Source: Myxococcales bacterium (GTDB lineage Bacteria > Myxococcota > Myxococcia > Myxococcales > Myxococcaceae). From it: 12,056 nt of DNA. The position numbers and the translations under genes are program-made. The stretch lies in contig PMBV01000363.1 of assembly GCA_003153055.1 (NCBI GenBank), positions 1-12,056 of the forward strand, read 5' to 3'. How positions within the stretch are numbered: the stretch's first letter is position 1; every line of letters starts with the position of its first letter. The notes below the pieces were generated by a model that searched no databases, was not told where the DNA came from, and saw only the letters and a list, made by a program, of their open reading frames with translations. Positions 1 through 11,866 of this stretch are shown here, piece after piece.

Positions 1-707
1 CCGCTGGCGGCGTAGACCATGTAGTACAAGTCATTGCGTTTGTAGAACCACGGTCCTTCTTCGAAGAGGGTGGCGCGTTTGGCGTCGCCATTGCGCTGGC
101 CGAAGCTCTCGATGGTCAGGGGCACGGTGACGATACCCACCTTTTCGTCATAAGAGATCATGTCGTTGTTGAGCTTGACGTACTTGAGGGCGGGGTTGCC
201 CCAGTAGAGGTAGGCCTGGTCATCGGAGTCGATCCAGACGGTGGGGTCGATGTTGCCGGCGCCGGAACCGATGAGGGGTTTGCCGATGGCGTCTTTGTAG
301 GGGCCTTCGGGTTTGTCGGCGACGGCGACGCCGATCATTTTGTCGCCGCGTTGGGGGGTCATGGGAACGTAGTAGTAGAACTTTTTGTTGCGTTCGATGA
401 CCTGTCCGGCCCAGGCGTCGTCTTTGACCCAGGAGAAGTCCTTGCAGGACAGCGGCGTGCCGTGGTCGGTCCAGTTGACCATGTCGGTGCTGGTGTAGAG
501 CAGCCAATCATACATGGTGAAGCCAGTCGCGTCGTCCTCGTCATGGCTGGTGTACAAATACACCCCGCCGTCGAAGACCATGGGCGCTGGATCGGCGGTG
601 AACTTCGTTTGAATGATTGGATTGTCGGCAAGACTGGCCGAGGCCATCAGCGCCATCGATGACAGCCACAGCCGCCCGAACCGAGTCATCGCGATCGTCC
701 AACGCAT
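1..707 (-). CDS. Exported GH43-family glycoside hydrolase, 3' end cut off by the window edge
   Basis: Secreted five-bladed-propeller glycosidase, probably an exo-acting alpha-L-arabinofuranosidase or beta-xylosidase on hemicellulose side chains. 235 complete codons are visible. Residues 1-27 form a signal peptide (Arg-rich start, hydrophobic stretch [14 protein letters not shown], likely cleavage after ASLA). All three GH43 catalytic acids are present: Asp39 in TADPAP (general base), Asp154 in NIDPTVW (pKa modulator) and Glu217 in EEGPW (general acid). Family-like blocks are [23 protein letters not shown] and AYLYWGNP. The start at 707 is chosen because AAGGGG lies about 7 nt upstream and it yields the complete signal peptide; Met at 689 is an alternative. 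It begins 15 nt after the stop of the four-haem gene, so the two are probably co-transcribed. Eight of 14 lysine codons read are AAA, which looks less biased than the neighbouring genes. The truncated C-terminus could hold a carbohydrate-binding module. Family assignment is firm; exact substrate is inference. Confidence 0.93.
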
Positions 708-722
708 CGACAGCCCCTTTTT

Positions 723-3700
723 CTACTCGATGGTCGGGGTGACGACGTCACCCTTGGACTGTGCGTCTCGCTTCGCCTGGTCGGAGAACATGTCTGAGTT
801 CAGGTCGAGCCAGAGGCCGAAGGCGTGGAGCTCATCGGCCGAGAGCGTCACGTTTTGGTGGCCGGCCTTGAGGAGCGGGTAGAGGCGGGAGCTGAGGGCC
901 CCGAACTTCCCCGGCGTCGTCACGGTAGGGCCGAAGGCGTCGTTGAAGTTGTAGAACGAGGCATAGGGCTTCAGGTTGGCGTACGAGGAATAGAAGCGGT
1001 CCCCGTTGCTCTGGTAGTTGCCCGTGCTCAGCGAGAACGTCTGCCCGTTCCCCTCGTGGCAGGTCGCGCAGCGCTTGTCGAGGATGGGCTGGATGAGCCG
1101 CGGGAACGAGAGCGGCATGCTCCCATCGCCCTCCGGCTGCAGCACCGACGCCGGGCGTGAGAGGGCGAGCGGGAGCGCCGCCGCTCGGCTGGGAGCCCGG
1201 TACCGCCGCTCATGGCACCCCTGGCAGACGACGCGGGTCGACCCGGCCACCGCGTAGGTCGCCGACCGCATGGACTGCACCGCGAGGCCGTTGGCGTCGA
1301 GCGCCTGGAAGAACACCGGCACCCCTGGAGGCAGCATGAACCGGGCGCTGCCGTCCTTCTCTACCGGCACCGTGCCGAGCGAGCCACGCCCATTCTGATC
1401 ATTGTACATCATCGCGCCGTGGCCCAACCGCGGGTTGATGGTGTTCGGCGTGGACTTGGGGAACACTTGCACGACCCGGAGCGCTTTGATCTCCACTCCA
1501 GTCGGGAAGGGCAGCATGGAGTCGTAGACGTTGAGCAGGGTGACCTCGGCCGGGTCGGTCTTCTTCCCGGTGCGGCTGGGGAGGAGCACCGGCGGCGCCT
1601 GGCGCGCGGCCAGCGGAATCGGGTCGAGGCAGGAGTGCGAGGAGTCCTTGTAGATGAGCTTCTTATTGCCCTGGCGATCGATGAGGTAGATGGCGAACCG
1701 CTTGTTGAGGCCCGCCTCGTTGGCCTGAGGGTCGTGCACCACCAGGAAGCGGTCCTCGTCAATCGGCCACGCCGTGGCGTACTTCTGGTCGCCGCCGGTG
1801 TCGGTGGTGGCCTCGGGGAACTTGGCGTCGTTGGTGAGAACGGTGTACTGCGCCATCCCGTCGTCGTCCTCGATGTCAGGGTCGACGATGACCAGCGACC
1901 CGTAGGCCTGCTGGTGGTGGGGCGAGGCGGTGCCGACGAACTTGTTCGTCCCCGGAATGTTTCGGAGGTTCAAGAGCGCCCGCGGCGTGACGTTCATGCG
2001 GGTGGCATAGTTGCCGCCCACCGCCCGCGCGTCGAGCCCGTCGGGCGTGGTGGTCCACGAGTTGTGCACCTGATTGGCGCCGCGGTCTACGTAGTCCCAG
2101 CGCGAGTAGAGCAGCATCCCGTTTCGGTCGACGCTGGGCTGCCACTCGTTGGTCTCGTGGAGGCTGATAGGCTCGACCCCGCTGCCGTCGGCGTTCATCA
2201 CGTGGAGCGTGTAGACCGGCACGGGGCGCGGGTGGCAGCGACCCCAGCCGCCGCGGCGCTCCGAGATGAAGACGATGCGCCCGTCGGGCAGCCAGGTTGG
2301 ATCGAAGTCGTTGTGCGGGCCTTGGGTCAATTGGGTCAGCCCGGTCCCATCGGCGTTGACTTTGAAGATGTGGAACACCGAGCCCTCGTTCCAGGTCACC
2401 CGCTGGCCGATGTCGGTGTAGGCGAAGAGAATCTGCTTGCCGTCGGGGTGGAGGTCTGGCGACAGGAACCCGCCCCCTTCCAACTTCTTGCCCTGGTGCG
2501 GGCCGTTGGCGCACGTCGCGCTGGCCAGCACGTTCCGCTCCTTGGGGTTCCCCGAGAGGACGTTCTCGAGGACGAACAGCCCGCCGCCAGACTGCGCATT
2601 GAAGCCGAAGTACTGGTCGCAGATGTGGGCCCCATAGCCGTTGTCCCCGGTGGGAATGAAGTCGCGCTTGATGAAGAGGATCTTGTCCAGCATCGCGAGC
2701 TTGGGGTCGGTGAGGTCGAGCCCACCCTTGGCGCTCGCGGTGGGGGCCTCGCCCTGGAACTTCTCCTTGGGCGGCGCGGCGTCTCCACCGGGGTACACCG
2801 CCACCTTCTCTGAAGTCGGGGCGTCGAGCTCGAGAACGTACTGGACGAGATCGCCGAGGTCGGCCGCGGAGAGCCCCGAGGTCGCGGCATGCTTGCCGCT
2901 GGGGTTGCGAGTGGTCAGCACGTCTTTCACCGTCGGCGCCGAGCCATCATGCAGGTAGGGAGCAGAGCGCCACAGCTCGATCAGTGTCGGCGTATCGAAG
3001 TCGCCGCGCGAGTCACGGCTGTTCTTGGTGCCCACGTCGTGCATCTTCATGTCGGTGAAGTACCGGCCGGCGTGACACTGACCGCACCCCACCTTGGCGA
3101 ACACCGCTTGGCCGCGCTGCGATGAGGCGCTCCGCTGCCCTGCTTGGCTGGTCGGGGTCCGCTCGCCACTCAAGGTGTTGAGGTACGCCCCCAGCGCGAT
3201 CTCCTGCTCGGCCGTCGGCTTGAATGACTTGACGTATTCGAACTCCGCGGTGATGGCCACTCCGGGGGTCGCGAGGATTCCGTGGGCCATCGCGGGAGGC
3301 GTGTTCACCGTGTAGACGACCGACTTGGTGTTCTTGGCGTTTCCCATGCCGTCGTTCACCAGGTCCCAGGTCAGCCCGTCGGACCGGGCATCGACGTGGC
3401 AGGTGGCACAGGCCAACCAACCCTGCAGGGTGCTGGTGGCGTCGTTGAAGAGGCGCTCGCCTTGCCGGGCCCAGGTCTCATCGGGCTGGGTGCCTACAGT
3501 GACGTAGCGATCGACCGTGCCCCCAGTCGCGTTCACCAGCCCGACTTGGCCGGCGAAGTAGAGGGCCACCGCGATTTGCTTCCCGTCGGGAGAGACGGCG
3601 ACGCCCCGCGGTCCGTGGGCGGGCGCGAGCTTGATGATCTGCAAGACACCAGCGCTGTACAGCGCTCCGAGATCGTCGGCGAGGAGCGCTCGCTTCTTCG

Positions 3701-4901
3701 AGTCGGCGGCGATATCAAACCACACGTCAGACAGCGGCTTCGTATACGCGGCCTTGGATCGGTCGGTGGCCGTCGGCGTCTTCCCCTGAGTGCGAACCAG
3801 AGCCGAGGGAATCTGCCCAGCCATGAGCGGGTGGAGGACCGAGAGGTCCACCCGGAGCACGGTCTGAACGCCCGAGGCCGAGACCCAGAGACTCTTCCCG
3901 TCTTTGCTCACATCGACGCCCCAGGGGTTCGCCGAGCCCTCGTTCAGCCGATCGAGCAGCACCGTCCCGTAGAGGCTCTGGCCCGCGAGGTCGATGACAG
4001 ACAGGGCGTTGGTGTTGACCCAGCCTCTGAGCAACTGAGTGGCCGGCGCGCTGACCCGCCCCAAGGTATGCACCACATAGGCCCACTTGCCATCAGGAGA
4101 GCAGCGCACCCCCCGCACCCCCGAGGAGCCGAGCGGGAGCCGGATGGAGGCGGTCACCTTCGCGCTCGACACGTCAACCAGACTGACCGAGGCGGCGGCG
4201 TCGGCTTGGGTAGCGTCGCCCGAGGCCATCAAGTGGCTCACGACCGCCGTCTTCCCGCTGGGCGCCAGGGCGACGGCATACGGATACGGGGCGACGGCCA
4301 CGGTGGCCTGCGTCGCTCCGGTGGCTCCGTTGAGGATGAGGACCTGACCGAGCCCGAACTCGGGCACCACGACCGTGGCTCCGTCAGCGCTCACCGCCAC
4401 GTCGGTCGGCTTGGGGCCCACCGCCAGGCGCCGCACCACCGAGCCAGCAGCCGCGTCCACCTCGGCGACCGTGCCCGCCCCGTACTCGGCGACGAATACA
4501 TGCCCAGCCCCAGACCACGAGAGCCCCTTGGGGCGGCCGGTCAGCTTCACCGACCGGAGCGCACTGCCAGCCTTGGCGTCGAGGACGACCAACTCGCCCG
4601 CGGTCACGTCGGAGACTGCGATGAGAGCAGAGTCGCTGGAGTAGGCGACCGCGTACGGCGAACGGTACACTGGCGAGGTCGATGGGTCGCTATCGGTGGA
4701 CCCGCCACCGTTCCCGCCGTTCTCACTGTCCCCACCGTTCTCACCATTCCCACCGTTCCCACCGTTCGACCCTCCCCCGCCCGCCCCTGGGGTCGGCCTC
4801 GCGCCGTTGCCGAGGTCGGAGGCCATGCCCTCCGCGCACGAACAGGCGCAGGCGAAGCCGAACAGCACCGAAGTCGCAATGAGGAGCCTTCGTGCGTTCA
4901 T
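723..4901 (-). CDS. Four-haem double-propeller lipoprotein: YVTN propeller + MauG-like di-haem + hydrazine-synthase-alpha-like domain
   Basis: Predicted 1392-residue exported c-type cytochrome; reaction unknown. Residues 1-22 are a signal sequence rich in Cys (FACACSC), suggesting a lipoprotein. Residues 28-77 are a Gly/Asn linker. Residues 80-470 are YVTN/lactonase-type propeller repeats (SADGATVVV, SPDGKQIAV). Residues 470-695 are MauG/di-haem cytochrome c peroxidase-like, with haem sites C498-ATCH and C606-GQCH and the family block TPTLIELWRSAPYLHDGSAP. Residues 735-1215 resemble the hydrazine synthase alpha-subunit propeller (CDQYFGF, GGGLFVLE, LSPDLHPDGKQILFAYTD, SERRGGWGRCHPRP). Two further haem sites follow at C1226-QGCH and C1278-ATCH. 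The start at 4901 is favoured over a longer reading (to 5720) because GGAGAG sits just upstream and a signal peptide begins there. The longer frame would run into the divergent GH97 gene. It heads an operon with GH43. Hydrazine synthesis itself is unlikely outside anammox bacteria; electron transfer or substrate oxidation at the cell surface is a guess. Confidence 0.9.
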   Translation of the reverse strand: MNARRLLIATSVLFGFACACSCAEGMASDLGNGARPTPGAGGGGSNGGNGGNGENGGDSENGGNGGGSTDSDPSTSPVYRSPYAVAYSSDSALIAVSDVTAGELVVLDAKAGSALRSVKLTGRPKGLSWSGAGHVFVAEYGAGTVAEVDAAAGSVVRRLAVGPKPTDVAVSADGATVVVPEFGLGQVLILNGATGATQATVAVAPYPYAVALAPSGKTAVVSHLMASGDATQADAAASVSLVDVSSAKVTASIRLPLGSSGVRGVRCSPDGKWAYVVHTLGRVSAPATQLLRGWVNTNALSVIDLAGQSLYGTVLLDRLNEGSANPWGVDVSKDGKSLWVSASGVQTVLRVDLSVLHPLMAGQIPSALVRTQGKTPTATDRSKAAYTKPLSDVWFDIAADSKKRALLADDLGALYSAGVLQIIKLAPAHGPRGVAVSPDGKQIAVALYFAGQVGLVNATGGTVDRYVTVGTQPDETWARQGERLFNDATSTLQGWLACATCHVDARSDGLTWDLVNDGMGNAKNTKSVVYTVNTPPAMAHGILATPGVAITAEFEYVKSFKPTAEQEIALGAYLNTLSGERTPTSQAGQRSASSQRGQAVFAKVGCGQCHAGRYFTDMKMHDVGTKNSRDSRGDFDTPTLIELWRSAPYLHDGSAPTVKDVLTTRNPSGKHAATSGLSAADLGDLVQYVLELDAPTSEKVAVYPGGDAAPPKEKFQGEAPTASAKGGLDLTDPKLAMLDKILFIKRDFIPTGDNGYGAHICDQYFGFNAQSGGGLFVLENVLSGNPKERNVLASATCANGPHQGKKLEGGGFLSPDLHPDGKQILFAYTDIGQRVTWNEGSVFHIFKVNADGTGLTQLTQGPHNDFDPTWLPDGRIVFISERRGGWGRCHPRPVPVYTLHVMNADGSGVEPISLHETNEWQPSVDRNGMLLYSRWDYVDRGANQVHNSWTTTPDGLDARAVGGNYATRMNVTPRALLNLRNIPGTNKFVGTASPHHQQAYGSLVIVDPDIEDDDGMAQYTVLTNDAKFPEATTDTGGDQKYATAWPIDEDRFLVVHDPQANEAGLNKRFAIYLIDRQGNKKLIYKDSSHSCLDPIPLAARQAPPVLLPSRTGKKTDPAEVTLLNVYDSMLPFPTGVEIKALRVVQVFPKSTPNTINPRLGHGAMMYNDQNGRGSLGTVPVEKDGSARFMLPPGVPVFFQALDANGLAVQSMRSATYAVAGSTRVVCQGCHERRYRAPSRAAALPLALSRPASVLQPEGDGSMPLSFPRLIQPILDKRCATCHEGNGQTFSLSTGNYQSNGDRFYSSYANLKPYASFYNFNDAFGPTVTTPGKFGALSSRLYPLLKAGHQNVTLSADELHAFGLWLDLNSDMFSDQAKRDAQSKGDVVTPTIE
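4705..4767 (-). repeat. Seven 9-bp tandem units encoding a Gly-Gly-Asn linker
   Basis: Seven consecutive 9-bp units close to CCACCGTTC on the plus strand (4705-4767) lie inside the four-haem gene and encode the Gly/Asn/Glu-rich linker after its signal sequence (about residues 45-66). Four units are identical and three differ by one to four bases. The array keeps the reading frame, so unit gain or loss would only change tether length between membrane anchor and propeller. Confidence 0.85.
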
Positions 4902-5204: not shown

Positions 5205-7181
5205 ATGAGGCTGCCCAAGCTCTGGACGATCACCGCGCTCGTGCTCAGCGCCTGCACTCAAGGAGAGATCGGCGACCTGAAGCCCGACGCCTCCTCGGAT
5301 CACGTCGACGGGGGTGCTCCAGCGCGCGACGCAGGCCCGCCGGCGAGAGACGACGCTGGCACTGGCGCCGATGCCGGCACCGATGCGGGAGGCGCCCTGG
5401 TACCAGACAGCGGGCTCCCTCAACCTCCCAACACCGTGCTCAGCCCAGACGGGCGCATCGCCGTCGAGCTCTCGACGACCGGGGGCGTGCTGCGGTACCA
5501 AGTCAAGGTCGATGGTGCCCGGGTCCTCTCGCCCTCCGAGCTCGGGCTTCGAAGTGATGGAGTGGAGTTCGGCCAGAACGCCACCCTGGGCACCTTCTCC
5601 CGTCGCTCGGTCGACGAACAGTACCCATTCTTCGGGGCCCACGCGGTGGCTGTGAACAAAGCCAACGAGGCCTCGGTGCCGGTCACCAGCGGAGGTGATT
5701 CGTATAGCGTCGATGTGCACGTCGCCGACGACGGGCTGGCCCTTCGGCTCCGCGTGCCCGCCAAGAAGGGCCGAAAGGTCGAGGCTGAGCGATCAGCGTG
5801 GCGACTCGACGGAGACCCGACTGTCTGGGTGACCGAGCAGGACCAGAGCTACGAGGCCCACTACCGGACCAAGACACTGAGCACGCTGGGCACCGCTTCC
5901 TACGACATGCCCCTGACGGCGAAGGTCGGCACTCTCTACCTCAGCATGACCGAGGCAGGAGTGAGGGACTACGGCGATGCGTCGCTCAAGGTCTCCGCCG
6001 GTGCGCTGCAAGCACTTCTGTACGCCGACCAGACCGGGTGGACGACCGACGCCGAGGTCATTCAGCCGTGGCGGGTGACGGTCATCGCCCGTGACCTGAC
6101 GGCGTTGATCAACACCACGCTGGTGCAGAACCTGAGCGCACCGCGAGATGCCTCGCTCGACGGCGCCGATTGGATCAAGCCCGGGCGGTCGACCTGGCAG
6201 TGGATGGCCGTCGGCTCGCCGCAACTGGCGGATCAACACCAGTGGGTCGATTGGACTCAGCAGCTCGGTATGGAATATTACCTCGTCGATGATGGCTGGA
6301 GCGCCTGGCCGGACCCCTGGCCGTCGTTGCAGTCGTTGGTCACCTACGCTGAGAGCAAAGGAGTCAAGGTCTGGCTGTGGGTGCACAGCCGCGAGGTCAC
6401 CGACGCGACCGCGCGCCGGGGCTACTTCAAGCAGGCGAGCGACATCGGAATCGCCGGGGTGAAGATCGACTTTCCCCCCGCGTGCAACCGCCCCACGGCG
6501 ACCTGGTACTGGGACAGCGCGCGCGACGCGGCCCAGTACAAGCTGCTGCTCGACTTCCATGGCGCGGCCAAGCCCACGGGCATGGAACGCACCTGGCCGA
6601 ACGTGCTCACCCGCGAAGGGGTTCGCGGCCATGAGTATCAGATGACTCGATACAACCGAATTCTGGAGCCTGCCCACGACACCATCTTGCCCTTCACTCG
6701 GTACGTGGCCGGCAGCGCTGACTATACACCGACGGTCTTCGCGCCAGTCGAGCTGCAGGGGAATACGTGGGCCCACGAGCTGGCTCAGGCGATCGCCTTC
6801 TCTTCACCATTCCTGTGCTACGGCGGACACCCCAAAGACTACGTCTCCAATGCCGCCGCCGACGTCCTGAAGGCCATACCCGCCACCTGGGACGAATCGA
6901 TTGTGCTCCCAGGGGCCGAGCCGGGAAGCGTAGCGGCGCTGGCCCGCAGGAACGGAAAGAGCTGGTTTGTCGGTATACTCAATGGCGCGGCTCCCACGAC
7001 GATGGATGTGCCGCTCACGTTCCTTGGAGCTGGCCAGTGGTCCTCGGTACGGCTCGGCGACGTGGAGGGGAGAGCCGACGCGTGGGACCGGAAGGAAGGG
7101 GCCGTCTCGGCCTCCGATACCCTCAAGGTGAAGCTGTCGGGCCGGGGAGGCTTCGTCGCCTGGTTCAAGCAGGAAGGGTGA
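5205..7181 (+). CDS. GH97 lipoprotein, predicted retaining alpha-galactosidase
   Basis: A 658-residue surface or periplasmic lipoprotein expected to release alpha-linked galactose with retention. Residues 1-16 are a signal peptide ending in lipobox LSA-Cys17. An Asp-Ala-Gly-rich tether (about 28-72) follows, then the GH97 N-terminal beta-sandwich (about 75-320) and the (beta/alpha)8 catalytic barrel (about 325-580). A C-terminal beta domain ends with the run GGFVAWF. Asp422 in GVKIDF is the predicted nucleophile and Glu477 in REGVRGHEY the acid/base. Their 55-residue spacing equals that of Asp415/Glu470 in the retaining Bacteroides thetaiotaomicron enzyme BT1871, as I recall it. The inverting SusB-type alpha-glucosidases have a Glu at the first of these positions. 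Glu471 matches a calcium ligand of the family. CGGAGA precedes the ATG closely. It is first of three glycosidase genes read together; GH95 follows after 58 nt. Full length. Retaining mechanism is well supported; galactose specificity is inferred. Confidence 0.94.
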   Translation: MRLPKLWTITALVLSACTQGEIGDLKPDASSDHVDGGAPARDAGPPARDDAGTGADAGTDAGGALVPDSGLPQPPNTVLSPDGRIAVELSTTGGVLRYQVKVDGARVLSPSELGLRSDGVEFGQNATLGTFSRRSVDEQYPFFGAHAVAVNKANEASVPVTSGGDSYSVDVHVADDGLALRLRVPAKKGRKVEAERSAWRLDGDPTVWVTEQDQSYEAHYRTKTLSTLGTASYDMPLTAKVGTLYLSMTEAGVRDYGDASLKVSAGALQALLYADQTGWTTDAEVIQPWRVTVIARDLTALINTTLVQNLSAPRDASLDGADWIKPGRSTWQWMAVGSPQLADQHQWVDWTQQLGMEYYLVDDGWSAWPDPWPSLQSLVTYAESKGVKVWLWVHSREVTDATARRGYFKQASDIGIAGVKIDFPPACNRPTATWYWDSARDAAQYKLLLDFHGAAKPTGMERTWPNVLTREGVRGHEYQMTRYNRILEPAHDTILPFTRYVAGSADYTPTVFAPVELQGNTWAHELAQAIAFSSPFLCYGGHPKDYVSNAAADVLKAIPATWDESIVLPGAEPGSVAALARRNGKSWFVGILNGAAPTTMDVPLTFLGAGQWSSVRLGDVEGRADAWDRKEGAVSASDTLKVKLSGRGGFVAWFKQEG

Positions 7182-7239: not shown

Positions 7240-9915
7240 ATGGGTAGCCTCGTTCGCGTCCTGTTCGTGCTCCTGTCGCTCTCCGCCTGCGAGGGCATTG
7301 CCTTTCGGGCAGTTGCCGACGGAGGCCTGCCTGGCGGTGGCCCCGGTCGCGTGGGAGGTGGCTCGGGCGGCGGACACGGGTCCACGGGCGGAGGCACGTC
7401 CACTGGCGGAGGCAGCTCCACCGGCGGAGGCACGTCCACTGGCGGAGGCAGCTCCACCGGCGGCGGCGGCTCCACCGGCGGAGGCTCGGCAGCTGGGGGT
7501 GGCACGGCCGAGGTCCCCGGCATCGACATCGACGGAGGCGCCCTGACCCTGTGGTACGACACGCCGGCGGCCGTCTGGACCGAGGCGTTGCCCGTGGGCA
7601 ATGGGCGGCTCGGCGCCATGGTCTTCGGTGGGCCGACGAGCGAGCGGCTCCAACTCAACGAGAGCTCATTCTGGTCGAGCGGGCCTTCTCGGAACGACAA
7701 CCCCAAGGCCGCGGGTGTGCTGGCCCAGGTTCGCCAGCTCATCTTCGATGGAAAGAACAAAGACGCCGAGTCGCTCATCAACGCCAACTTCCTCACCCAG
7801 AACAACGCGGCGAAGTTCCAGACCGTCGGCGACCTCAGCGTGCGCTTCTCGGGGCACGAGAGCTTCACCGCCTACACTCGCAACCTCGATCTCAAACGAG
7901 CCGTCGCCACGACGACGTACAAGGTCGACGGGGTCACCTACACCCGGGAAACCTTCGCCTCTCAGCCTGATCAGGTCATCGTGGTGCGGCTCTCCGCCGA
8001 CCGCAAGGCACAGCTCACCTTCACCGTCGGCCTTGATGGCCCCCTCAAGACCGGCGTCAACGTTCTCGACGAGCGCACCTTGGAGTTGACGGGACTCTCC
8101 GGCTCGAATGGAGGCGTCACCGGGCAGGTCAAGGTCGACGCCCGGGTCAAGGTCGTGAGCTCGGGAGGCACCACGGCGAAGTCGGCGAACGGAATCATTG
8201 TCACCAACGCCGACGAGGCGCTGCTCCTCGTGTCGATCGCCACCAACTTCGTCGACTACAAGACCCTGACGGCCGATGAGAAGGCGACCTGCGCGAAGTT
8301 TCTCTCGGACGCTGGGGCCAAGTCCTACGACAGCCTCCTCGCGAGCCACCTGGCCGCGTATCAAGGGTACTTCAACCGCGTGGCCCTCGACCTCGGGCCG
8401 GCCACCTCGACGGCCACGACCAATCAACGCATTCAAGGGTTCTCGTCAGGCAAAGACTCCCAGTTCGCCGCCATGTACTTCCAGTTCGGCCGCTACCTGC
8501 TCATCTCGAGCTCGCAGCCCGGAGGTCAGCCGGCCAACCTGCAGGGAATCTGGAACGACTCGACGGACCCCGCGTGGGGCAGCAAATACACCATCAACAT
8601 CAACACCGAGATGAACTACTGGCCCGCCGAGAAGACCAACCTCTCCGAGATGTTCGACCCCCTGAAGCGCATGCTGCAGGAGCTCTCCGAGAGTGGCAAA
8701 CAGACGGCTTCGAGCATGTACGGGGCCAAGGGCTGGGTGGCGCACCACAACACCGATATCTGGCGCATCAGCGGTGTGGTCGATTTCGCCAGCTCGGGCA
8801 TGTGGCCCATGGGGAGCGCCTGGCTCTCACAGCACCTATGGGAGCACTATGCCTATACGGGCGACCTGAAATACCTCGAGGAGGTCTACCCTGTATTGAA
8901 ATCGGCGTGCGAATTCTATCAAGACTTCCTCGTCGAGGAGCCGAAGAACAAGTGGCTCGTCGTGTCTCCGTCGGTTTCGCCGGAGAATGCCCCGGGTGCG
9001 ACCGGTGGTTCGGCCGTCTGCGCGGGAAACACCATCGACAACCAACTCCTCTTCGACCTCTTCACGAAGACCATCAAGGCGGCGACCCTGCTCGGAAAGG
9101 ACAGCGACCTGGTGAGCAAGCTCCAGGGCCTCCTCGACCGGCTTCCGCCGATGCAGGTCGGCAGCTGGGGTCAACTCCAGGAATGGATGCAAGACTGGGA
9201 CAGCCAGAATGACACCAACCGCCACGTCTCGCACTTGTATGGTCTGTACCCGAGCAATCAGATCTCGCCCGATGCGACCCCGCAGCTCCTCGACGCCGCG
9301 CGGACCTCGCTGATTCACCGGGGCGATGTGTCCACCGGCTGGTCCATGGGCTGGAAGGTGAACTTCTGGGCGCGACTCCTCGACGGGAACCACGCCCTGA
9401 AGCTCATTCGTGACCAACTGTCTCCCCAGAGCGGCGGGGGCGGCGGCACCTACCCCAACCTCTTCGACGCCCACCCCCCGTTTCAAATCGATGGGAACTT
9501 CGGCTGCACCTCAGGCATCACCGAGATGCTGCTGCAGACTCAAGGTGGCGTGGTGCACATTCTGCCGGCGCTGCCCGACGATTGGGCAAGCGCGGGGGGT
9601 GTCAGAGGCCTGCGCGCCTACGGAGGCTTCGAGGCCGACTTCACATGGAAGAACGGCCAGGTCGAGAAGCTCGTGATTCGCTCGCGCCTGGGTGGCACCT
9701 GTCGAATTCGCGTCCCCAACGAGATGGCCCTGAGCGACGCCACGGCGCTCACGAAGGCCTCCGGCAAGAACCCCAACGCGTTCTTCGACACTCCGGCGGT
9801 CAAGAAGGCGTTGATCTCCCCGTCTGCGAAGCTGAACGAGGTCGTCCTTCGCAAGACCTTTGAGTACGACCTCCAAACCAAGGCCGGGGAGGGCTATGTC
9901 CTCATCAAGAAGTAG
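7240..9915 (+). CDS. GH95 lipoprotein, predicted alpha-L-fucosidase or alpha-L-galactosidase
   Basis: An 891-residue exported inverting glycosidase of the (alpha/alpha)6-barrel family GH95, removing terminal alpha-L-fucose or alpha-L-galactose. Residues 1-16 are a signal peptide with lipobox LSA-Cys17. Residues 28-88 are a Gly/Ser/Thr repeat tether. The N-terminal beta domain starts at about 102 with the GH95 block [14 protein letters not shown] and LNESSFW. The barrel carries Asn453 and Asn455 in [14 protein letters not shown], Glu582 in SPEN and Asp751 in FQIDGNFG. These match the Asn421/Asn423, Glu566 and Asp766 set of Bifidobacterium bifidum AfcA. Thr451 stands where AfcA has His419 near the sugar C6, a substitution reported in an alpha-L-galactosidase. 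The start at 7240 is chosen because no other start codon in frame precedes it after the GH97 stop and it opens the signal peptide. No strong ribosome-binding site is visible, so expression may depend on GH97 translation. The gene overlaps GH27 by 20 nt. Full length, intact. Confidence 0.95.
7387..7476 (+). repeat. Five 18-bp tandem units in the GH95 tether
   Basis: Five 18-bp units starting GGCGGAGGC alternate between an ACGTCCACT ending and an AGCTCCACC ending (7387-7404, 7405-7422, 7423-7440, 7441-7458); the fifth (7459-7476) is a variant beginning GGCGGCGGC. The first four form two exact copies of a 36-bp super-unit, which points to recent duplication. They encode Gly-Gly-Gly-Thr/Ser-Ser-Thr steps of the flexible tether between lipid anchor and enzyme. 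Confidence 0.9.
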
Positions 9916-11866
9916 AGGGAGCCGCGAGTCCGCTGGGCGCGCGCTTCGTTCCGTGACGGCGGTGGCCATGCTCGCCGCCGCGGGGGCCCATGGCGCAGCC
10001 ACTGACATGACCATCTCGATGGACCAGGCACCGTCGACGCCGAAAATCCACGCGCCCTCGGTGGTCTCGGCGCGGCCGGGCAGCCCCTGGGTGTACGCCA
10101 TCCCCTCGACCGGCCAAGCGCCGCTCGGCTTCTCGGCGCAGGGGCTCCCCGCGGGCCTCTCGCTGGACGCCAGCTCGGGGATTCTCTCGGGCACGATGCC
10201 GGTCGCCGGCTCGTACCCAGTGGTCATCACCGCGAGCAACTCCAGTGGGAGCGCGAGCGCGACGTTGACGCTCGTGTCTGGCAACACGCTCAGCCTCACT
10301 CCGGCGATGGGCTGGAACAGCTACGACTCCTTCGGCGGCGGGGTCACCGAGCAAGAGACGATGGACGCGGCGACGGTGCTCAAGGCGAAGCTCCAGCCGT
10401 TCGGGTGGAACACGGTGGTGGTCGATTACCTCTGGTACGACGGAGAGCAGCTCATCGACGCCAACGGGCGCTACCTCCCATCGCCGCGGCGGTTCCCCTC
10501 GGCCACGGGGACGCTTGGGTTCAAGCCCCTCGCCGACAAAATCCATGCCCTGGGCCTCCAGTTCGGCATCCACATCATGCGTGGCGTTCCCCGGAAGAGC
10601 GTCTCGGCGAAGAGCCCCATCGCTGGGTCGACGTACACCGCGGCCGACGCGGCCAACACCAGCGACGCCTGCGCGTGGGACTCGCACATGTGGGGCGTCC
10701 GGGGAGCCACGGCCGCCGGGCAGGCCTGGTACGACTCGATCTTCAGTCAGTACGCCGAGTGGGGCATCGACTTCGTCAAGGTCGACGACATGGTCGGCGG
10801 CGCCTATCACCAGGAAGAGGTGATTGCGATTCGGAAGGCGATCGACAAGACCGGCCGGTCGATCGTTCTCAGCCTCTCGCCCGGGCCGATGCAGACCCGC
10901 GACGCGGTCAACTTGAACGCCAACGCAAACATGTGGCGAATGGTGAACGACTTCTGGGACACCAATGGTCTGAGCAACCTCAACGACGAGTTCGACACCG
11001 CCGCCAATTGGCAGGCGGTCACGGGCCTCGACGTGGGGCACTGGCCAGACGCCGACATGCTGCCCTTGGGGTACATCGGACCGCGCTGTCCTGTGCATGG
11101 GGCGGGCCCCACGGGTCTCAGTCATAACCTGCAGGTGTTGGTCATGACGCTCTGGAGCATCCTGCCCTCGCCGTTGATGTTCGGTGGCAACGTACCGGCG
11201 CTCGCCACCGACGGGACGGGCCCATGGACCACGGCGTTGCTGACCAACGAGGAGGTCCTCGCGGTCGACCAGGACGGCCTGGGAGCTCGCGCGAAGCGGC
11301 TCCGGCGCGATGGCAGCACCGAGGTGTGGACCCGGGCGCTCAGCGGCGGTCGGCTGGCGGTGGCGCTGTTCAATCGGGGGACGCAAGACGCGACGATGAC
11401 CGTGCCCTTCAGCCAGCTCGGGGTCTCGGGGCCGACGGTGGCCCGAGATCTCTGGCACCGACAGCAGGTCAGCAGCGCTGCCGCGGAGCTGAGCGCGAAC
11501 GTCCCCCACGAATCCGCGCTGCTGTTCACCCTCTCCCCACCGGCGCCCGACGGCGGAGTTGGCGGAACCGACGGAGGCGCGACCACGGCAGACGCGGGGC
11601 ACGGCAATGGCGAACCTGGCACTGGAGGCGGCGGCGGGACTGGCGGGGGCGGCGACACTGGAGGGGGAACCGGCGGGGCCGCTGGAGGGGGAGCCGGCGG
11701 AGGGCCCGGGGTAGACGCGGGGGTCCACCCAGTCGATGGCGGGGTCTCCAAACCGAACGGCTTCGCGACCGGTGGGTGCGGGGCAGCCTCCGGCGAACAG
11801 CGTGGCTCGATGGCCTGGGTGGTGCTGGTGGGGGCGCTGCTCCTCGGGGCCCGACGGAGACCTTGA
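9896..11866 (+). CDS. GH27 alpha-galactosidase-like enzyme with Ig-like domain and MYXO-CTERM tail
   Basis: A 656-residue secreted retaining glycosidase. Order: basic start and signal peptide (1-35, hydrophobic core about 19-33); putative Ig-like domain of the He_PIG type (about 50-128, GLPAGLSLDASSGILSGT); GH27 barrel from about 135 (PAMGWNSYDSFG); beta-sandwich (about 460-547); Gly-rich stalk (about 552-606); sorting tail (626-656). Asp297 in DFVKVDD is the predicted nucleophile and Asp352 in WRMVNDFW the acid/base. GHWPDADML matches the family GxWNDPDML block. The ATG at 9896 is preferred over a TTG at 9860 because GGGGAGG sits just upstream and it starts the signal peptide cleanly. It overlaps the end of GH95 by 20 nt, so coupled translation is likely. 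GH27 also contains beta-L-arabinopyranosidases and isomalto-dextranases, and this protein has divergent stretches (GIHIMRGVPR), so alpha-galactosidase is the best but not certain call. Confidence 0.92.
   Translation: MSSSRSRGSRESAGRALRSVTAVAMLAAAGAHGAATDMTISMDQAPSTPKIHAPSVVSARPGSPWVYAIPSTGQAPLGFSAQGLPAGLSLDASSGILSGTMPVAGSYPVVITASNSSGSASATLTLVSGNTLSLTPAMGWNSYDSFGGGVTEQETMDAATVLKAKLQPFGWNTVVVDYLWYDGEQLIDANGRYLPSPRRFPSATGTLGFKPLADKIHALGLQFGIHIMRGVPRKSVSAKSPIAGSTYTAADAANTSDACAWDSHMWGVRGATAAGQAWYDSIFSQYAEWGIDFVKVDDMVGGAYHQEEVIAIRKAIDKTGRSIVLSLSPGPMQTRDAVNLNANANMWRMVNDFWDTNGLSNLNDEFDTAANWQAVTGLDVGHWPDADMLPLGYIGPRCPVHGAGPTGLSHNLQVLVMTLWSILPSPLMFGGNVPALATDGTGPWTTALLTNEEVLAVDQDGLGARAKRLRRDGSTEVWTRALSGGRLAVALFNRGTQDATMTVPFSQLGVSGPTVARDLWHRQQVSSAAAELSANVPHESALLFTLSPPAPDGGVGGTDGGATTADAGHGNGEPGTGGGGGTGGGGDTGGGTGGAAGGGAGGGPGVDAGVHPVDGGVSKPNGFATGGCGAASGEQRGSMAWVVLVGALLLGARRRP
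11609..11710 (+). repeat. Glycine-rich stalk of the GH27 protein
   Basis: Low-complexity GGC/GGG-rich stretch encoding residues 572-605, mainly GGGT, GGGD and GGGA steps. It is a third independent Gly-rich tether in this locus, here next to a C-terminal rather than an N-terminal anchor. The DNA repeats are imperfect, without a strict period. Confidence 0.75.
11771..11863 (+). other. MYXO-CTERM-like sorting signal
   Basis: Residues 626-656 of the GH27 protein have the tripartite layout of MYXO-CTERM tails: GG-Cys (Cys628), a hydrophobic helix (MAWVVLVGALLLGA) and a terminal Arg-Arg-Arg-Pro. In Myxococcota such tails are thought to be cut near the Cys by myxosortase-type intramembrane proteases and the protein moved to the cell surface. 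This is the best single taxonomic marker in the window. The spacing between Cys and helix is slightly long, so the exact model score is not known. Confidence 0.85.

Follow-up and report, generated by a model that had tools for sequence, protein, structure and literature searches.

A single-chain relative of the three hydrazine synthase subunits encoded in a Myxococcales genome

Three subunit homologues in one chain

We analyzed a 12,056-nt stretch of DNA from a Myxococcales bacterium (contig PMBV01000363.1 of assembly GCA_003153055.1, hereafter the window), focusing on one long gene on its minus strand. The gene is an open reading frame (ORF) of 1392 amino acids at 723–4901, which starts with an ATG at 4901, preceded by a ribosome-binding-like GGAGAG, and stops at 725–723. 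Its product joins homologues of all three subunits of hydrazine synthase (HZS): a beta propeller, a gamma di-haem domain and an alpha propeller with a di-haem domain. Beta and alpha are assigned from both sequence and fold, gamma from sequence, and the module order beta-gamma-alpha is that of the anammox operon. The gene contains the following features:

723..4901, minus: whole gene, beta-gamma-alpha HZS-like fusion, 1392 amino acids (ORF, family and structure-sequence searches)
4842..4901, minus: signal peptide and probable lipobox, residues 1–20, Cys18 or Cys20 (sequence, crude pattern)
3522..4664, minus: HZS-beta-like seven-bladed YVTN propeller, residues 80–460
4008..4070, minus: residues 278–298, counterpart of the HZS beta loop that lies at the gamma-alpha tunnel (alignment with Kuenenia beta 245–260)
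2826..3479, minus: HZS-gamma-like, MauG-related di-haem domain, residues 475–692 (family searches, profile-profile comparison)
3396..3410, minus: haem site gammaI, C498-x-x-C501-H502 (invariant, 45/45 fusions)
3072..3086, minus: haem site gammaII, C606-x-x-C609-H610 (invariant, 45/45 fusions)
2703..2825, minus: gamma-alpha linker, residues 693–733 (continuous across the 45-fusion alignment)
1602..2699, minus: HZS-alpha-like N-terminal propeller, residues ~735–1100 (predicted model and fold search)
1209..1493, minus: HZS_alpha middle domain PF18582, residues 1137–1231 (Pfam)
1212..1226, minus: haem site alphaI, C1226-x-x-C1229-H1230 (alignments)
1200..1202, minus: Tyr1234, aligned without a gap to alphaTyr591, a haem ligand in Kuenenia HZS (45/45 fusions)
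1056..1070, minus: haem site alphaII, C1278-x-x-C1281-H1282 (H1282 kept in 44/45)
858..860, minus: His1348, possible distal ligand of haem alphaII, offset by one column from alphaHis772 (45/45 fusions, 39/39 rows of the alpha alignment)

A sequence-only reading of this DNA had described the product as a YVTN propeller, a MauG-like di-haem enzyme and an HZS-alpha-like domain. The family searches bore out these similarities: Pfam matched HZS_alpha (PF18582, 3.5e-17, residues 1137–1231), CCP_MauG (1.9e-8) and a YNCE propeller (1.7e-8). The parts themselves had to be reassigned. The best NCBIfam model for the front half was the HZS betagamma fusion (1.8e-39), with hydrazine_beta at 1.4e-25 (residues 80–362) and hydrazine_gamma at 7.8e-25 (residues 478–626 and on). 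The propeller is thus an HZS beta homologue, and the MauG-like part is nearest to HZS gamma. The chains of the Kuenenia stuttgartiensis structure 5C2V matched their respective parts (5c2v_C, gamma, 1.9e-22; 5c2v_B, beta, 6e-20; 5c2v_A, alpha, 4.8e-9), and a profile-profile comparison of the gamma-like domain with anammox gamma gave an E-value of 1.4e-39. Instead of coming from families that normally occur in separate proteins, as had been supposed, all three modules match subunits of one complex. A fusion of two unrelated enzymes was rejected, since every part maps to an HZS subunit. None of the HZS equivalog cut-offs was reached (beta 90.2 of 560, gamma 87.5 of 625, alpha 39.1 of 800 bits), and controls showed that weak matches to these models alone say little, the alpha model also matching Caulobacter and the betagamma model Methanosarcina.

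The gamma part shares its di-haem fold with MauG, MbnH and bacterial cytochrome c peroxidase (CCP), and one could picture a protein modifier of this kind, in which the propellers would hold a partner protein while the gamma part oxidises residues in it. Matches to MauG (2.2e-12, 46.8 bits) and MbnH (1.5e-10, 40.6 bits) fit such a role; however, both score below HZS gamma at 87.5 bits, and MauG falls far short of the cut-off of its own model (TIGR03791, 443.85 bits). The Trp position of MauG and CCP, whose meaning we take from section 8 of PMC12758564, is A, S or V in the fusions, and no gene for a partner protein was recognised among the adjoining genes. We therefore regard a MauG- or MbnH-like modifier as quite unlikely.

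That the three modules form one genuine chain follows from a protein search against 5.8 billion sequences, of which the best 120 of 1179 matches were listed. We aligned the window protein with 44 full-length fusions, 55–88% identical (n=45); P0002, the cluster to which the window protein itself belongs, and the incomplete rows P0046–P0048, P0050 and P0051 were excluded. The joint at residues 691–735 is conserved throughout, with P695, G717 and P733 invariant and P697, V700, P711, P720, L728 and D729 near-invariant. The possibility that a frameshift or chimera had merged distinct genes at 695–735, proposed at the outset as grounds for doubt, is ruled out by this joint, which is read through continuously in 45 aligned fusions from different contigs. 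P0048 and P0051 do appear frame-broken and stand-alone relatives exist, but an independent genome (G1162, locus L159) encodes a complete fusion of 1470 amino acids matched by the beta, gamma and alpha models, and the probability of an artefact is practically negligible.

G1162 is one of the 3 of 18 genomes in its order that the betagamma model matches, together with G001, which holds the beta part at one contig end and the alpha part at another (L161, L009), and G1166, where a contig end cuts the fusion within gamma. The relatives that carry an organism name belong to the Myxococcota (L009, Myxococcales; P0048, Polyangiaceae, which falls in this phylum; P0122, Polyangia). The most distant fusion, P0049, has at about 650–815 an extended Gly/Ser linker containing a Cys pair, a stretch resembling a transmembrane segment and an Arg-rich end, followed by a second signal-peptide-like segment before alpha, which resembles an anchored betagamma protein running into an alpha precursor. 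It is a possible fusion intermediate, or a join made in gene calling.

Haem sites and active-site residues

The four CxxCH motifs noticed in the sequence-only reading start exactly at residues 498, 606, 1226 and 1278. As 43 of the 45 aligned full-length homologues carry four such motifs (the other two carry three), they are not due to chance; in P0049, one of these two, site four reads CxxxCH. The surface tether fared less clearly. Candidate lipobox cysteines (Cys18/20/22) follow a hydrophobic N-terminal stretch, and a relative (L159) has a clearer lipobox of the LVIMGC type, so that the protein is likely, to judge from its sequence, a lipoprotein; however, the pattern used is crude; besides the window protein it matches 25 of 46 family rows, with about 11 of the others having no usable N-terminus.

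We next compared the catalytic residues with those of HZS, using residue numbers verified on the Kuenenia genes. On the alpha side, Tyr1234, which aligns with the haem alphaI ligand alphaTyr591, is Tyr in all 45 aligned fusions. The same column varies among relatives: of 38 stand-alone or locus alphas, 24 have His there and one has Tyr, and in 133 alpha-like locus ORFs it is His in 30, Asn in 20, Thr in 15, Arg in 11 and Tyr in 6 (two of the six being the same gene), with other residues in the rest. In an alpha tree of 60 rows, 14 fusions form one clade (100/100) nested among stand-alone alphas, far from the anammox alphas, whose branch has a length of 3.82 changes per column. Because the column varies and the fusions nest so far from anammox, this Tyr is weakened as proof of HZS activity; fixed as it is in the fusions, it is probably convergent with the anammox residue. 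The zinc site alphaCys303 (with alphaHis587) has no Cys in the aligned column of the fusion, although this is not a strict criterion, Cys also being absent in 4 of 9 anammox rows. The invariant His1348 lies one column off the distal ligand alphaHis772 in two alignments.

On the gamma side, gammaCys165, which forms a third covalent haem bond, has no counterpart, as no Cys lies between the two gamma haem sites in 45/45 fusions. Nor is gammaHis144 kept: it corresponds to A539 in the window protein and to A, S or V in 16/16 fusions. One residue on, H540 is His in the 16 fusions of a 60-row alignment (A4) and in 40 of the 45. The beta loop at the tunnel (residues 278–298) ranks 11th of 361 among 21-residue windows for conservation. 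Its Glu residues are not kept, Kuenenia E254 and E256 aligning to Q289 and L291; position 291 is E or D in 29 of the 60 rows of A4.

A structural protein or electron sink, non-catalytic in itself, with haems that store or pass electrons and propellers that bind glycan, would agree with the propeller, with the lectin and dockerin associations among relatives and with the variable alphaI ligand position of stand-alone alphas. The haem gammaI region, in contrast, is strongly conserved, W512, N524 and others being invariant, and we consider such a role unlikely.

Two features are common to the fusions and the stand-alone alphas and absent in anammox HZS: C889 (2235–2237), found in 44/45 fusions and 39/39 rows of the alignment of the window protein with stand-alone or locus alphas, and H995/H996. 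They are candidates for a site that binds a metal or haem across the wider family.

The fusion could still be a true HZS, or another enzyme forming N–N bonds outside anammox, with gammaI reducing NO to hydroxylamine and alphaI condensing it with an amine. All three subunits, the four haem sites, the tunnel loop and the Tyr in 45/45 fusions favour this idea. Against it stand the loss of gammaCys165, gammaHis144 and alphaCys303, scores far under HZS cut-offs that, for the alpha model, are passed by 27 of 392 genomes of a Planctomycetota sample, and the Tyr, whose column is variable among stand-alone relatives and which the tree suggests to be convergent. The HAO family (PF13447) was also not found in three related, possibly incomplete genomes (G001, G1162 and G1166; 12 matches in the Kuenenia control), while cytochrome c assembly (PF01578) is present in these three and in Kuenenia. 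Both the lost gamma residues and the absent HAO partner argue against hydrazine as product; most likely another reaction is catalysed, and an N–N bond-forming enzyme is very unlikely.

Compared with Kuenenia HzsABC, the fusion has in common the three subunits and their order, four c-haem sites, the alpha and beta folds, the tunnel loop and the Tyr591 equivalent. It differs in being one chain and a probable lipoprotein with about 23% identity in alpha, in missing gammaCys165, gammaHis144, alphaCys303 and the loop Glu, and in the absence of an HAO family match in related genomes.

Neighbouring genes and the wider family

The fusion gene is flanked by genes for carbohydrate-active enzymes of several glycoside hydrolase (GH) families:

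3..707, minus: GH43-family gene, cut by the window edge, 15 nt past the end of the fusion gene and probably co-transcribed with it
5205..7181, plus: divergent GH97 lipoprotein, alpha-galactosidase-like
7240..9915, plus: GH95 lipoprotein
9905..11866, plus: melibiase (GH27-type alpha-galactosidase) ORF, true start probably further in

Rfam and tRNA scans of the window gave no feature. By eye, the melibiase ORF closes with a run rich in Gly, a probable membrane-spanning segment and RRR, resembling a C-terminal anchor of Myxococcota, and a tail of this kind was likewise noted by eye in P0049; the MYXO-CTERM model of NCBIfam matched weakly (E 0.02 for this ORF and 0.44 for P0049). In L159 and L160, a PF01042 (RidA-fold) gene and a lipoprotein gene of unassigned family adjoin the fusion and are divergently transcribed. 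A conserved glycosidase operon around the fusion received no support, as among four settings (the window, L159, L160 and L009/L161) glycosidases adjoin the window gene alone.

The placement beside glycosidases had been called unexpected. The neighbours are indeed glycosidases, but the setting is less odd because carbohydrate-binding modules (CBM) or dockerins are found on relatives of each half. Among the best 120 of 3067 matches to betagamma, 21 bear a dockerin and 26 a dockerin, lectin, CBM or F5/8C domain, cellulose-binding modules included; NPCBM occurs in 27 of 70 stand-alone alpha rows among the matches listed. A Pfam rescan of nine domain-bearing relatives confirmed the carbohydrate-linked domains. 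For example, P0123–P0153 are betagamma-like di-haem proteins with type I dockerins from cellulolytic clostridia, and the ones that were aligned retain both CxxCH motifs; from their sequences, these haem c proteins are apparently meant for cellulosomes. One of them, P0128 of Anaerobacterium chartisolvens, shares the betagamma core and two CxxCH motifs with the fusion but has no alpha, keeps the MauG-like Trp, and carries a dockerin and a ricin-type lectin in place of the lipid tether.

Planctomycetota, Verrucomicrobiota and neighbouring groups commonly have alpha-like genes (at least 80 loci), and PF18582 was found in 76 of 377 sampled Myxococcota genomes, in 67 of them above the cut-off. One 7.1-Mb genome (G002, L004) has 27 PF18582 HZS_alpha matches, several of them in tandem beside a betagamma gene. 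Split relatives, with a fused betagamma and an alpha-like gene nearby, occur at L004, L013, L054 and L061.

A proposed two-site redox enzyme and the origin of hydrazine synthase

The best reading of these sequences is a probably membrane-tethered, two-site, tetra-haem redox enzyme that may be linked to glycans. In full, we propose, as a reasonably probable account, a probably membrane-tethered single-chain relative of HZS which keeps the two-site mechanism, carries out a reaction other than hydrazine synthesis, and has a role at extracellular polysaccharide in the service of the adjoining degradation genes. The bis-His haem gammaII would take up electrons and hand them on to haem gammaI, where a small substrate would be handled on the open face in a first step. 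By analogy with HZS, the small product would then move through the loop-gated gamma-alpha tunnel to haem alphaI, the putative site of the second step. The fusion would set a 1:1:1 ratio and tether the enzyme outside the cytoplasm. The family may act on, or next to, extracellular polysaccharide, and the window gene may, in the weakest step of the proposal, serve its neighbours of the galactoside/arabinoside-degrading type.

An intramolecular electron relay between the two haem pairs had been suggested instead. According to the part of PMC12607021 consulted, the gammaI and alphaI haems of HZS are joined by a tunnel, whereas alphaII lies outside the range of efficient electron transfer, which argues against such a relay; if the HZS arrangement is kept, a diffusing molecule rather than electrons would connect the halves.

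Several observations weigh against the proposed two-site enzyme and its glycan role. Beta-gamma and alpha were modelled separately, haems absent, and the tunnel is taken from homology. The invariant Tyr1234 is more in keeping with an alphaI site like that of HZS than with a plain haem c. Betagamma and alpha occur together at just 4 of 79 loci and are mostly apart, so that they need not work as one unit everywhere. The GH38 gene of L160 and the GH44-like gene of L009 lie several kb from the fusion and are not adjacent to it. Furthermore, glycosidases do not recur near the ~79 stand-alone alpha loci, where, in the first 25 of 107 families from the 114 of 214 flanking ORFs scanned, no glycosidase family reached two members (one GH95); the other 100 ORFs are mainly short or very long.

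Previous work has touched on related proteins. Scalindua has a fused HzsBC, and Planctomycetota and other groups have hzs-like operons with a fused betagamma like that of the window gene; there alpha is a separate nearby gene, unlike in the fusion (PMC12758564, PMC10732223, in the parts examined). The examined part of PMC12758564 (December 2025) describes distant split HZS homologues, in which key residues were judged lost, and a two-residue gap at Ser590/Tyr591 in clades I–III; that of PMC10732223 proposes a wider family of hzs-like proteins that use other substrates. Neither mentions Myxococcota or a three-subunit fusion in these parts. The Diamond search of PMC12758564 required 50% subject and query coverage, which, we infer, would drop such a fusion. 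In the open-licence literature we found no published report of a three-subunit HZS-like fusion.

The dockerins, lectins and CBM on the betagamma half, like the NPCBM found with alpha, suggest that the family takes part in breaking down extracellular polysaccharide. More tentatively, we think it possible that HZS represents a single specialised offshoot within a very large family of haem enzymes that are secreted, targeted to carbohydrate and equipped with two active sites, some of them cellulosomal, of which the Myxococcota fusion would hold the whole machine in a single gene.

HZS has been regarded as unique to anammox bacteria, and the fusion keeps its subunits, their order and the Tyr591 equivalent in a different phylum. 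It probably does a different redox job and matters as a clue to the origin of HZS. If the polysaccharide role is true, this origin becomes a testable question, and the family may reveal an uncharacterised class of oxidative or reductive glycan enzymes. As a single transcription unit, the fusion would give assembly and stoichiometry for free on expression; should the wide carbohydrate-targeted family be real, both the origin and the tunnel mechanism of the key anammox enzyme would become accessible in a one-gene, heterologously expressible protein.
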